Position numbers and translations under genes: made by a program. From the NCBI GenBank assembly GCA_015295835.1, contig DVEG01000026.1, forward strand, positions 124,001-188,000: 64,000 nucleotides of DNA. Direction: 5' to 3'. Positions within the stretch are counted from its first letter, which is position 1, and every line of letters begins with the position of its first letter. The notes under the pieces were generated by a model, which searched no databases, was not told the origin of the DNA, and saw only the letters and a list, made by a program, of their open reading frames with translations. The DNA is from Oscillatoriaceae cyanobacterium M7585_C2015_266. Its GTDB lineage: Bacteria > Cyanobacteriota > Cyanobacteriia > Cyanobacteriales > Oscillatoriaceae. Positions 43,170 to 48,422 of this stretch are shown here, piece after piece.

Positions 43170-43264
43170 TAAAATAAAAACATGAAGAATGAAGGATGAA
43201 AAATGAACGATTTTCGTTCATTGATCATCAGTCAGCCTTCATAATTCAATATAGAGAGTTTGCT

Positions 43265-45196
43265 GTGACTGTCAGAGTTCGTCTTGCCCCAAGTCCAACG
43301 GGCAATTTACACATCGGTACAGCTAGAACGGCTGTCTTTAACTGGCTGTTCGCCCGTCACAACGGGGGTCAGTTCATATTACGGATAGAAGATACAGATC
43401 AGGAGCGATCGCGCCCTGAATACACTCAAAATATCCTCGATGGGCTTAATTGGTTGGGCCTAACATGGGATGCTGGCCCTTTTTATCAATCCCAGCGTCT
43501 CGACTACTACAAGCAGATGATCCAAACTCTGCTGGATAAAGGGCTAGCTTATCGTTGCTATGTCAACGAAGAAGAACTTAACCAAATGCGAGAAGAGCAA
43601 AAAGCTAAAAATCAGGCTCCTCGCTACGATAACCGCCACCGCCATCTAACTCAAGAACAGCGGGATGCCTTTGAAGCTTCTGGGCGAATGTCTGTAATTC
43701 GGTTCATCATTGATGATGAACGAGTTATCACCTGGAATGACTTAGTACGTGGTCCAGTGACTTGGAAAGCTAGCGATCTTGGTGGTGATATGGTCATAGC
43801 CCGTGCCGCTGGTCCAGGAGAAATTGGCCAACCTCTTTACAATCTCGCCGTTGTGGTGGATGACATCGATATGCGCATCACCCACGTCATCCGGGGGGAA
43901 GACCATATCAGCAATACGCCTAAACAGATTTTGCTCTACGAAGCTTTCGGTGCAAATATTCCGGAGTTTGCTCACACGCCTCTAATTCTTAACAAAAACG
44001 GTCAAAAGTTATCAAAACGAGATGGCGTGACTTCTATTTCTGAGTTCAAGCAGTTGGGCTATACACCGGAGGCAATGGTCAATTACATGACTTTGCTTGG
44101 TTGGTCGCCTCCAGATAACCAAGAGCGCTTTACTCTGGAAGAAGCGGCAAAGAAATTTAGTTTTGAACGGGTGAATAAGGCGGGTGCTAAGTTTGATTGG
44201 GATAAGCTTAACTGGCTGAACAGTCAATACCTGCAAGAAAAGCCAATTTCGGAGCTGACTGAGCTGCTAATTCCTTACTGGCAGGAAGCTGAGTTTAAAT
44301 TTGACCCCGTAGGCGATCGCCCCTGGCTAGAACAAATTACGGCTCTGATTGGTCCCAGTCTCAAGCGTTTGAGTGATGCAGTCGCCATTAGCCGAGTGTT
44401 TTTCGTGCCCTCGGTAGAATTGCATGAAGAAGCTGCTAAACAACTACAGCAGGAAGGTGCTATGGCTGTTTTGGCAGCAATTCTAGCTAAACTATCTCTC
44501 TTGCAACCGTTGACGGAGACAAGTGCCGGGGAAATCCTCAATCAGGTAGCGCAAGAGCAAAAAGTTAAAAAGGGGTTAGTGATGCGCTCGCTGCGAGCTG
44601 CCCTGACTGGTGAGGTACATGGTCCCGATCTTGTCCAGTCTTGGCTTATCCTGCACCAAAAGGGGCTTGATCGCGCCCGCTTGCAAACTATTTTAGGGAA
44701 AAATAATCCCAAGGAGGCTTACGTGGTTGAAACACCAAATTCTGAACCATCTTACAGCGCTAGTACAGCTGAAACTCCTGCTCCAGAAACTCCAACAGTA
44801 CTGAGTGATACCCCGGCTGCAAAAGTTAGTGATTGGCATGAATCGGTAACTTCCAACCAATCAGACAATCAATTTCAACAAATCACTCAACAAGTTCTCG
44901 ACATTTTTGAGAAATTGCCTGATTACCTTGGTGGCTTTTTTAACCAATACTCTAAGCCACTGACTACTTTAGGGCTGATTGTGGTAATTTTACTCTCGCT
45001 TCGGGTACTTTTCGCTGTATTGGATGTATTGAACAGTATCCCACTTTTAGGCCCTACTTTTGAGTTAGTTGGCATCGGATACACTATTTGGTTTGTTTTC
45101 CGCTATTTACTCACGAGTACCAGTCGTCAAGAATTATCCGATCTGATCAAAACCTTGAAAGAACAAGTTACCGGTCAAGGTTCCGGTAAGTCATAA
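43265..45196 (+). CDS. gltX: Glutamyl-tRNA synthetase with C-terminal CAAD membrane domain
   Basis: I start it at GTG 43265 ([20 protein letters not shown]), the usual family start, though the frame opens upstream at an ATG at 43196. The HIGH motif (HIG) and KLSKR in [13 protein letters not shown] are present. From about residue 500 the enzyme ends in a Pro/Thr/Ser linker (about 505-555), then a domain with two hydrophobic helices ([20 protein letters not shown] and [15 protein letters not shown]). This is the CAAD domain known from some cyanobacterial synthetases, which anchors them to thylakoid membranes. 643 residues. GluRS feeds both protein and tetrapyrrole synthesis. Confidence 0.95.
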
Positions 45197-45225
45197 TTGC
45201 TGTAACTCAAACTGAACTGAATCTA

Positions 45226-45246
45226 GGGTGGGAAAACCCACCCTTT
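45226..45246 (+). terminator. Terminator after gltX
   Basis: GGGTGGG-AAAA-CCCACCC-TTT, a perfect 7-base stem. Confidence 0.85.
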
Positions 45247-45325
45247 CTATTGATAGACTGATGGTACTTGGTGCAATGATGATTTCGTTGCTTAAAAATT
45301 TGTTTTCAAATTAGCTACTAGATAT

Positions 45326-45355
45326 AAAAAAACGTCAAGAATGAAGTTCCTGACG
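45326..45355 (-). terminator. Terminator after the ParR-like gene
   Basis: On the minus strand CGTCAGGAA and TTCTTGACG (one G-T pair) close a CTTCA loop, then a run of seven T. Confidence 0.8.
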
Positions 45356-45369
45356 CTTTGGGAATAGAG

Positions 45370-46350
45370 TTAAAAATCTAATTCGCTAAGACGCTGCAAG
45401 AAAGGATCTTGAGGAAGTAACGGTTGGCTAGAACTTTCTGTTTCCGGTTGTGGTTCTGGTGCTGACTGTGAGGTGACTGGGGGATGTTGTATAAAATTTC
45501 CTTCCAGCAACTTTTGAATAGAGGAAGTCAGTTTTGCTAGTTGAGTGTCTAGGTGTTCAATGCGGCTTGCCTCTATAGCTGCTAGCCTACCCTCCAGATG
45601 GGCAACGTGACGTTCTAGAGAAGCGATCGCCTCGTTTACCTGCGTAGCACTTTCGGAAACAGTAGAAAGGGATGTAATTTGCTGCCCCTGTTTGGGGCTA
45701 GCTTCTAGTGCAGTTAACCGACTCTCCAAGCTAGCCACTTGCCGCTGCAGGGAGGCGAGCGCCTCTAAAATTTGTCCGCTCTGTTGGGCCATTGGAAGCA
45801 GAGCAGTTTCCTGCAGCTGCGTGCGACTTTGTTCTGCTGCTGCCACTCGGCTTTCTAATTCGGCAAATTTGTGATGCACCTGAGCGATGGCGTTGAGGAT
45901 TTGTTCACTCTGTTGAGCTGCCAGCAGTGCTGCCATTTCTCTGGCTTGCGTACGACTTTCATCTGCAGCCGTCATCCGGCTTTCTAGTATGGCTACTTGG
46001 CGCTGTAAAAGAGCGATCACCTCTAGCAGTTGTCTGCCTTCTCCGGCTACAGTCTGCGTAATCTGCTGTTCTTCTGTGCGGTTTTCCGATACCGCCTCTG
46101 CCACCCGATTTTCCAGTACAGCTAACTTATTCTGTACGGAAGTAATTTGTCGTTGTATCTGAGCTTTTATGGTAGCAGGGCGGACAGCTTCTGGAACGCA
46201 CAAAAATTGCCACAGAGCTTCTTTACAGAGGTCGCTGAAAGTTTTGTGCGGTTGTTTTGCTAATTCGCTTTCTATTACCGCTAATAAACTTTGATCTGCA
46301 ACCTCTTGCGTAAACGCCACCGATTTATAACTATTTTTGGCCCACAACAT
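45370..46350 (-). CDS. Coiled-coil partner of the ParM-like protein (ParR-like)
   Basis: 326 residues. The N terminus (about 15-60, QSLLAVIESELAKQPHKTFS, then DLCKEALWQFLCVPEAV) resembles the ribbon-helix-helix start of plasmid ParR proteins. After it comes a coiled coil made of five units with a period of 43 residues (44 for the last), each ending in 'LE[SNG]R' followed by Ala-rich E-x-S. The Gln/Pro/Ser-rich tail ends FLQRLSELDF, a short conserved-looking peptide of the kind ParR uses to cap ParM. It starts 8 bases behind the ParM-like stop. The function (DNA-bound filament adaptor) is inferred from context. Confidence 0.7.
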   Translation of the reverse strand: MLWAKNSYKSVAFTQEVADQSLLAVIESELAKQPHKTFSDLCKEALWQFLCVPEAVRPATIKAQIQRQITSVQNKLAVLENRVAEAVSENRTEEQQITQTVAGEGRQLLEVIALLQRQVAILESRMTAADESRTQAREMAALLAAQQSEQILNAIAQVHHKFAELESRVAAAEQSRTQLQETALLPMAQQSGQILEALASLQRQVASLESRLTALEASPKQGQQITSLSTVSESATQVNEAIASLERHVAHLEGRLAAIEASRIEHLDTQLAKLTSSIQKLLEGNFIQHPPVTSQSAPEPQPETESSSQPLLPQDPFLQRLSELDF

Positions 46351-46358
46351 TATTTAGT

Positions 46359-47489
46359 TCAAGCGTTAGTAGACGAGCGGCCCATTGCAGCTACTTGCGC
46401 TTCTCCATAAATATACTGTCCCAGCGCATTTGCTTTCCGAGAATGATCGGCCAAGTGAGCTCTTAGTTTGGCTTCTTTGAGCAGTGGTTGCAAGTCAGCC
46501 CAGAAGAATTCACCGCCGCCGCCGGTGATAACCACATCCGTCACCCGTTCCGGTAGCCATTCTACCAACCGATCTTTTAGCTGAGCAGCAAAGCTTTCTC
46601 GTAAGCTGGGCAGAAACTCATCGAGATTGGTTGGTTTCGTCGAGCCTCGTGGGCGATAGAATCTTTCGCCGTGTGGCTTGTGAACTGCCTCTATCAGAAA
46701 CAGAGATTGCGGATCTGCTCCTTCAATTTTGGCTGCCACTTGTTCGTAAAACTGGCTCATGGCAAAGTTGATGCTCTTGGAAGCCCCGCGGGCAAACCGG
46801 AAGCGATCGACCATAAGAAAATCGGTGGTTTGATGTCCTATGTCCACCACTGCTACTGACAGCTTAGTTAAATCTGTCATCGGGTTTTTTGTCTCTTGCG
46901 CCTCGCTCCAGATTAAGCTGCCAAAACCTTCTGGCATCACCCAAACCTGATCTATGGTTACTTCCATCACTTCACCGCGATAGCTCATGCGGTGAGGAGA
47001 ACGAAGCAGATTGATTACTTGTTCTTTTTCTTTCTCAAATTGCTCCTGCGATAGGAAAGGCAAGCCGAGTACTACTGACACTTCACCTTTAAGCTCGAAG
47101 TAGCCAATACAGGCGAGTACTTTTATTAGGGCATCTTCTACTTTCGATTGACCTACTCCGAGATTAGCGCCAAAGTCGGCTGCCAGTTGCCCGACTGCGT
47201 ACCCTCGACCTTGGTACTCTAGCCACATATCCATAATCGGGTCTGTTGGCCGAGTTTCAAACCCGCCACCGCGAACCTGTTCTACTGGCAGATGGGCAAC
47301 ATTGGCTGGGATAAACACAACGCTGTTCGGATCGCGGCTGATACAGGTTTTAGTGGATGTCCTACCCAGATCGACGCTTAGAATCTGTTTGTTTAGAGAG
47401 GAAGTCACTGGTGTTTGCTTAGTGTTTAATGGAGTCGTAGCAGACTCTTTGCTTCTTAGAGGAGTAGTTGCGGGCTGTTTGCTCGTCAT
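46359..47489 (-). CDS. ParM/StbA-type actin-like ATPase
   Basis: 376 residues. After a Thr/Pro/Ser-rich N-terminal stretch (about 1-33, with ATTPL repeated), the actin fold begins: phosphate 1 LSVDLGRTSTKTCIS (about 37-51), phosphate 2 VAVVDIGHQTTDFLMV, and adenosine motif VVITGGGGEFFW. This is the StbA/ParM branch. Such proteins form filaments that push plasmids; chromosomal copies in cyanobacteria are of unknown use. First gene of a two-gene operon with the coiled-coil protein behind it. No obvious parC repeat array in the 750 bases upstream. Confidence 0.85.
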   Translation of the reverse strand: MTSKQPATTPLRSKESATTPLNTKQTPVTSSLNKQILSVDLGRTSTKTCISRDPNSVVFIPANVAHLPVEQVRGGGFETRPTDPIMDMWLEYQGRGYAVGQLAADFGANLGVGQSKVEDALIKVLACIGYFELKGEVSVVLGLPFLSQEQFEKEKEQVINLLRSPHRMSYRGEVMEVTIDQVWVMPEGFGSLIWSEAQETKNPMTDLTKLSVAVVDIGHQTTDFLMVDRFRFARGASKSINFAMSQFYEQVAAKIEGADPQSLFLIEAVHKPHGERFYRPRGSTKPTNLDEFLPSLRESFAAQLKDRLVEWLPERVTDVVITGGGGEFFWADLQPLLKEAKLRAHLADHSRKANALGQYIYGEAQVAAMGRSSTNA

Positions 47490-48245
47490 TTTTAACTCTT
47501 AAATCTCGCTAAGCCTGAAATTATCATGCCCCATCTCCTTATATTAGATGAGATGGCGATTCGGATCGATTATATTGGCTCTCTCTAGTCTATTTTTAGG
47601 AGACGGGAGATCGGTTTAATTTAATTCCAGTAGTTGCCACTGCCATCCGGACTAGAGGGCCATACTTCACCACAACAAGGCTATGGTGATCAATTTGACT
47701 GTTTCGGTATCCTTCGCTCCTTAATTTTTTCGCCTACTTTGCCCCGCTCTCTTACTCTGAGTATGTTCTTTCTCCCAAAATCCTGAGTTTCTTCAGGTAT
47801 GGGGGAACAATTGCAGAGATTTTGCAGGAAAGGTGGTTTGCTGTCAGAGGTTTTGGCCATTGTGCACCCAACGGTGGCTACTGTCAAGTTATATAAGCAC
47901 AGACTGTTTGTTTTGAAAAGCTATCTCTCCTATTTTTTTTAAATCTGGTATGTCTAAATTTAGATGGTTTGTTGACGGGCAGGCTGTCAAGCTTTCTCTG
48001 CTATATATAATGGGCGCTCGCTAGTTCTATTTTACTTGCATAATCCTGCTCTTTTCTCCCTCTCCTGCGCTTGTTTGCTTTCTTTCTCTCTCTGCTTCTG
48101 CTGTTCAAACCGCTTCCCTTTCTTTACAAAAATTTACATTTTCTTAATTTTAACAAAACACTCCCAAATACCCCTGGTATATAAATTATAAAGTTGTTTG
48201 CCTTTGGTGTTATCTTAGATTTAGTTAGTTTCGCTGGAGATTTGT
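47490..48245. other. Divergent intergenic region, 756 bases, between parM-like and tatA
   Basis: I see no gene. A 65-codon frame on the minus strand (47690-47887) has no family character. 48045-48120 is a polypyrimidine stretch on the plus strand. A TATATAAATTATAA-type A+T box lies at about 48178-48192 before tatA. I looked for direct repeats of the parC type near 47490-47700 and did not find them. Confidence 0.5.
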
Positions 48246-48422
48246 ATGTTTGGTTTAGGATGGCCAGAAATGGGTGTAATTGTTGTGGTTGCTATTTTAA
48301 TTTTTGGCCCTAAAAAAATTCCTGAAATCGGAAGTGCCCTTGGCAAAAGCTTGCGTAGCTTTAAAGAAGGATTACGCCAGCCCGAAGAGGAGTCAGAAAA
48401 TACTGAAACAAAAAATCAATGA
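48246..48422 (+). CDS. tatA: Twin-arginine translocase subunit TatA
   Basis: 58 residues, too short for most trackers. Begins MFGLGWPEMGVIVVVAILIF, followed by GPKKIPEIGSALGKSLRSFK: the single membrane helix, hinge FGPKK and amphipathic helix are typical of TatA/TatE, then an acidic tail. It forms the pore of the Tat pathway. Here it is close to nrtA, whose product has a twin-arginine start, but genomic proximity is probably chance. It is followed on the other strand by the PsiE gene. Confidence 0.92.
   Translation: MFGLGWPEMGVIVVVAILIFGPKKIPEIGSALGKSLRSFKEGLRQPEEESENTETKNQ

Follow-up and report, generated by a model that had tools for sequence, protein, structure and literature searches.

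MreB is an actin-like protein involved in rod shape. The closest described relatives of the locus analysed here are another actin and its partner, known as FcmB/FcmC or CorM/CorR; the CorM/CorR system is reportedly the subject of a 2025 preprint by Springstein et al., in which CorR is, we take it, the name for FcmC.

In Nostoc punctiforme, deletion of either fcmB or fcmC leads to loss of the rod shape, and FcmB assembles into filaments that are associated with the membrane and encircle the cell, for which FcmC is required (PMC12645912). Two-hybrid assays revealed interaction between FcmB and FcmC as well as self-interaction, no contact of the pair with MreB, MreC or MreD was found, and two modes of rod shaping were offered, the steering of lateral wall synthesis or constriction (PMC12645912). 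Complementation succeeded for the fcmC mutant but not for the fcmB mutant, and the GFP fusions lacked function (PMC12645912). The family is reported in filamentous, not unicellular, cyanobacteria, and its plasmid origin is the published view (PMC12645912). Another paper describes chromosomal ParM-type actins, cParM, in Desulfitobacterium and Clostridium (PMC12270681); cParM and FcmB have in common that they are ParM-type actins on chromosomes.

Here we analyse a pair of genes in a stretch of 64,000 nucleotides (the window) from an Oscillatoriaceae cyanobacterium. An earlier note on this DNA, made from the sequence alone, had described them as looking like a plasmid segregation pair, a StbA/ParM-type ATPase with a ParR-like partner, possibly turned to another use.

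The locus and its chromosomal setting

Two open reading frames of 376 and 326 codons lie on the minus strand, where the earlier note had placed them. Both frames are intact, and fcmC starts 8 bases past the end of fcmB. The features of the region are as follows.

43196 to 45196: gltX with a C-terminal CAAD domain
45329 to 45359, minus strand: terminator-like hairpin (13-pair stem) and T run 3' of fcmC
45370 to 46350, minus strand: fcmC (corR by inference from position), partner protein of 326 amino acids (NF052682)
45373 to 45408, minus strand: FcmC residues 315-326, conserved C-terminal peptide (44-sequence alignment, model)
45409 to 45495, minus strand: FcmC residues 286-314, Pro/Gln/Ser-rich linker, without secondary structure in the model
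45511 to 46158, minus strand: FcmC residues 65-280, stalk of five units in tandem, each of about 43 amino acids (self-match, model)
46180 to 46350, minus strand: FcmC residues 1-57, conserved N-terminal domain (28-sequence alignment, AlphaFold2)
46359 to 47489, minus strand: fcmB (corM), ParM-related actin-like protein of 376 amino acids (NF052678, PDB 9rmi)
47490 to 48245, no strand assigned: fcmB-tatA intergenic region, no parC-like repeat array found
48246 to 48422: tatA, named by eye from the sequence

The pair does sit among housekeeping genes, between gltX and tatA, as had been noted, and minC is found on the same contig. This contig is one of the 35 that make up the 3.98 Mb assembly; its housekeeping genes make the location chromosomal, and it may be only a part of the chromosome. 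A plasmid or integrated plasmid, which along with parC repeats was an outcome that would speak against the earlier proposal, did not appear, the contig carrying gltX, tatA and minC. The CAAD domain at the end of gltX is a known extension of cyanobacterial aminoacyl-tRNA synthetases. The hairpin 3' of fcmC is probably the end of the operon; with seven hairpin-type sites in the region versus a shuffle mean of 3.9, the hairpin signal itself is weak.

A search for conserved synteny of gltX with fcmBC found none. Within flanks that are cut, the arrangement was present in none of the 62 loci of our named collection (43 of which span at least 12 kb) and in two of six loci from the family of the window, whose stretches measure only 2.4-5 kb. 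The two families as assigned by the curated models, the gene order and the chromosomal setting are the same as those of N. punctiforme FcmB/FcmC (Npun_R4472/R4471).

FcmB is an actin of the filament morphology family

The product of the upstream gene matches the NCBIfam model NF052678 (FcmB, 'filament morphology actin-like protein') with 658.6 bits (E 2.3e-198, cut-off 300), and Pfam places ALP_N (7.4e-19) and MreB-like_C (7.8e-9) on it. The sequence of CorM in the PDB (9rmi) aligns with it at 540.5 bits over residues 6-368. The ParM model of NCBIfam (PRK13917) reaches 56.8 bits against a cut-off of 417, and a PHROG partition protein 133.4 bits, while Dh-cParM1 matches only at E 0.62. Together, the Pfam and NCBIfam matches establish a bacterial actin and bear out the ParM-like actin of the first reading. 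StbA_N itself (PF06406) matched nothing at all, not even its controls, which makes this search uninformative.

The protein is 58-69% identical to nine other FcmBs and paralogues, and 44% to one diverged paralogue. A search of its own genome with the FcmB profile returned the window gene as the single match. MreB, likewise actin-like, is encoded separately on another contig (492.7 bits, the sole match above the cut-off), and fcmB is absent from the seven places that the mreB model TIGR00904 lists in this genome.

FcmC has conserved ends and a predicted long coiled coil

FcmC matches NCBIfam NF052682 with 169 bits in four stretches (cut-off 90). Its two ends are the conserved parts: a hand-picked subset of 44 of the available FcmCs aligns with 11 invariant columns, eight of them N-terminal and the others D315, P316 and F326, with R320 and L321 conserved in at least 90% of the sequences. 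A separate 28-sequence alignment of the N-terminal domain (residues 1-57) also has eight invariant columns. The short end peptide of the earlier note is thus a conserved C-terminus, and we propose that residues 315-326 contact the FcmB filament.

Structure prediction, which had been suggested for both proteins, was run for FcmC. The AlphaFold2 model of the full protein (mean pLDDT 74.3, pTM 0.31) places helices at 17-32, 38-49, 58-216, 229-285 and 316-322, and a linker at 286-314 with pLDDT below 50 at 291-297 and 305-308. The N-terminal piece modelled alone (mean pLDDT 74.0) has helices at 20-32 and 38-49 and no strand. The prediction returned the long helices and not the strand of a ribbon-helix-helix. 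A ribbon-helix-helix needs a preceding strand that is paired in the dimer, a pairing that a monomer model cannot show. Of the start proposed by the earlier note, two helices are predicted; the strand does not appear in the monomer model, and comparisons of fold and profile stay below significance. Foldseek with the N-terminus gave no match at E 0.001, only weak ones at E 3.2 and worse, five of ten of which were NikR chains. On this model the N-terminus is a possible ribbon-helix-helix, and FcmC may bind DNA.

Searches with FcmC outside its own family returned little else. Pfam gave only coiled-coil-type matches, all below cut-off; the solved structures searched with the sequence, the 44-row profile and the N-terminal profile gave coiled coils or nothing significant; and a membrane-spanning segment is not evident (highest 19-residue Kyte-Doolittle mean 0.95).

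For comparison with partition systems we took five actins from the same order with weak similarity to FcmB (L101-L105). They share with the window pair the actin family and, as in ParMRC, a gene order in which a small partner comes after the actin. These control actins are 22-26% identical to FcmB and lie on contigs of 47-292 kb that are not established plasmids. Their partners show no detectable similarity to FcmC (hhalign probability 0.1%). An R-L-R stretch occurs in the first strand region of four of the five partners and is missing in FcmC; this R-x-R comparison is tentative because the profiles being aligned share no similarity. The ParR-like character that had been assigned to the partner could accordingly not be demonstrated here, either by sequence or by fold.

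Search for a parC-type repeat array

The intergenic region upstream of fcmB (47490-48245), where a repeat search had been suggested, contains two-copy imperfect repeats only, with nothing reported upstream by Tandem Repeats Finder, and no repeats were found on the other side of the pair (45197-45369). We also counted the commonest 9-mer, one mismatch allowed, against 60 shuffles per region; in 47490-48245 it has four copies, a count reached by 37 of the 60 shuffles.

The same count was applied to the regions upstream of the control actins. In L103 six copies recur at intervals of exactly 10 bases, with a 9-mer count reached by 8 of 60 shuffles (weak), and L104 has scattered copies with a count reached by none. 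Scattered copies are also present in L102 and L105 (27 and 36 of 60 shuffles, respectively), and some of those in L102, L104 and L105 lie 10-11 bases apart. L101 has pairs only and is partly masked, which makes it unusable for the shuffle count. A clear repeat signal, unlike in the window, is therefore found in two of the four usable controls (L103 and L104). The observation of the earlier note that no parC-type array lies upstream agrees with this search, which, given so modest a control, can miss parC-like sites and makes the absence moderate evidence only.

The FcmC stalk is built of tandem units and varies in length

The long coiled coil described in the earlier note is recovered as the predicted helices 58-216 and 229-285 with a heptad pattern in 28-residue windows, and this stalk turns out to be repetitive. 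Shifted by 43 residues, the protein matches itself with a BLOSUM62 score of 195, compared with best scores of 70 and 55 in two runs of 200 shuffles, and five units of about 43 amino acids can be delineated, starting at residue 65. Tandem Repeats Finder does not detect the units in the DNA, indicating that they have diverged. Over the whole stalk, a global test for heptads is negative (1210 of 2000 shuffles reach the value at period 3.5), while within windows of 28 residues the signal at 3.5 exceeds all 500 shuffles. Such a result is compatible with a heptad phase that shifts between units.

Longer and shorter versions were found in related genera. In a genus of the same family (g3), FcmC has 445 and 447 amino acids in two genomes (L097 and L098), and a third (L100) has the gene cut by the contig end. 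The L098 protein contains eight units of about 41 amino acids, visible in the DNA as a 123-bp tandem of 7.2 copies (79%); for its stalk, 3.67 is the best among the periods tried, and the value at 3.5, when alanine is included among the hydrophobic residues, is reached by 49 of 500 shuffles. In genus g2, where FcmC measures 200-202 amino acids, a second unit appears at offset 42 in all three loci (scores 74-84, shuffle maxima 41-54). Genus g4 (215 amino acids) has no unit repeat, its self-match being 26 versus 36 for shuffles.

Elsewhere the protein is short. The 60 FcmCs at the 62 named loci have 161-209 amino acids (median 171.5), and units were undetected in them, with self-matches of at most 34, the highest of which lies within the range of its own shuffles. 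Across the order, 3 of 94 N-terminal FcmC matches (a set that includes one broken frame of 96 and one cut at 158) exceed 300 amino acids, one in the window and one in each of the two g3 genomes whose gene is complete. FcmCs of 241-251 amino acids occur in other families of the order; the unit search covered the window, g2 to g4 and the named loci. The resulting series starts with the majority of genera, where units are undetectable, and extends to two, five and eight units in the family of the window.

The rise of a coiled-coil helix is 0.1485 nm per residue. If straight and unbroken, the stalk would be about 34 nm long in this FcmC and about 50 nm long in that of g3. Since the ends of FcmC are conserved, the stalk between them may be read as a spacer that separates a domain on the membrane side from a peptide that binds actin. 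One could go further and see in FcmC a length-adjustable tether, whose number of units changes by tandem duplication and whose stalk sets how far the filament lies from the membrane, or how far filaments lie from each other, and hence cell width; we hold this to be a tentative idea, and rather doubtful as a whole. As a length outlier (326 amino acids against a median of 171.5), this FcmC may also differ in detail in its function.

The main text of the mSphere paper on FcmB/FcmC contains neither the word 'coiled' nor the word 'repeat', the CorM/CorR preprint being outside this comparison. The pair and its cytoskeletal role are already published, and variation in the length of the FcmC stalk is what this analysis adds. 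Against the unitless proteins of the named loci, a comparison that leaves N. punctiforme FcmC itself aside, the locus adds a natural series of about 200, 326 and 447 amino acids in one family, with 161-209 elsewhere, and this series offers a direct route to testing FcmC as a membrane-filament spacer.

A partition-type pair in probable cytoskeletal use

Taken globally, the window holds members of the FcmB and FcmC families in operon-like order, with conserved FcmC ends and an expanded stalk, and no repeat array was found. We consider it highly probable that this pair is FcmB/FcmC (CorM/CorR), a cytoskeleton encoded on the chromosome that descends from a partition system of the ParM type. A working ParMRC-type system that moved to the chromosome, where it would sort the chromosome or an integrated element, could account for the resemblance of FcmB to ParM and to the PHROG partition protein, and for an actin-then-partner order that is also that of parMR. 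Such a system is very unlikely here: no parC-like array was found, though only two of the four usable controls give a clear signal, FcmC is without the R-x-R stretch of most control partners in the tentative alignment, and the N. punctiforme mutants showed no obvious change in nucleoid distribution (PMC12645912). The published plasmid origin of the family would also suit a functionless remnant of an integrated plasmid, which we regard as extremely improbable in view of the two intact frames, the conservation of both FcmC end domains in 44 sequences, the level of identity of FcmB with its relatives and the presence of the pair across the order.

A cytoskeletal pair could also position some other structure, for example pili or chemosensory arrays, instead of determining cell width, with the long FcmC stalk marking the change. 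FcmC is indeed unusually long in the genus of the window and its sister genus, and a screen for motility was where transposon mutants of the pair first turned up; the motility effect was attributed to bent filaments (PMC12645912), and FcmB and both FcmC end domains are those of ordinary family members. This reading is very improbable. The pair is best read as ordinary FcmB/FcmC in which the stalk is expanded.

For this organism we infer the published function, along with ATP use, the role of each part of FcmC and the stalk as spacer. Mechanistically, FcmB would use ATP, like its relatives, to polymerise into filaments, and FcmC would bind FcmB, probably through the conserved C-terminal peptide. 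The N-terminal part of FcmC would hold the filaments at the membrane, with the helical stalk serving as spacer. The filaments would encircle the cell and contribute to its rod shape, by steered lateral wall synthesis or by constriction. The idea of a segregation-type pair turned to cytoskeletal use, raised in the earlier note, is supported because the proteins belong to a family with that published role, and it was in print in 2025 (PMC12645912). FcmB/FcmC clearly illustrates, as already published, how machinery for sorting DNA has become a cytoskeleton that shapes the cell.

Distribution of the pair and related actins

Among 291 genomes of the order, FcmB is above cut-off in 94 and FcmC in 91. 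At E 0.001 the numbers rise to 144 and 107, now including weakly similar actins and chance coiled coils, respectively. In the named collection, whose genera we take to be filamentous, BLAST found FcmC on the same stretch at 60 of the 62 FcmB loci; it is missing at L039, where the stretch ends soon after fcmB, and at L056. The gap between the two genes is at most 15 bases in 49 of the 60.

In the remaining 11 (L019, L034, L040, L041, L048-L051, L053, L055 and L062) it measures 205-652 bases, and these loci belong to Okeania, Trichodesmium, Hydrocoleum and a Microcoleaceae MAG. In one genome of the order (G167; L071:988-1468, minus strand) the FcmC frame is split into overlapping open frames of 96 and 132 amino acids, which is a frameshift or a sequencing error.

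Two further groups of FcmB-like proteins were seen. A diverged paralogue with about 45% identity to the FcmB of the window occurs at L106:2554-3945 (minus strand) and L107:2235-3608, in genomes that also carry a normal FcmB. Paralogues of 509-526 amino acids with an N-terminal addition are found at L056:5515-7056, L108:2832-4361 (minus strand) and L109:1581-3161, and FcmC was not found on the fetched stretches of these three loci. The added part opens with a hydrophobic, glycine-rich stretch, and the two proteins scanned for it (L108 and L109) have a YtxH match below cut-off. These three are possibly FcmB-family actins with a membrane anchor of their own.
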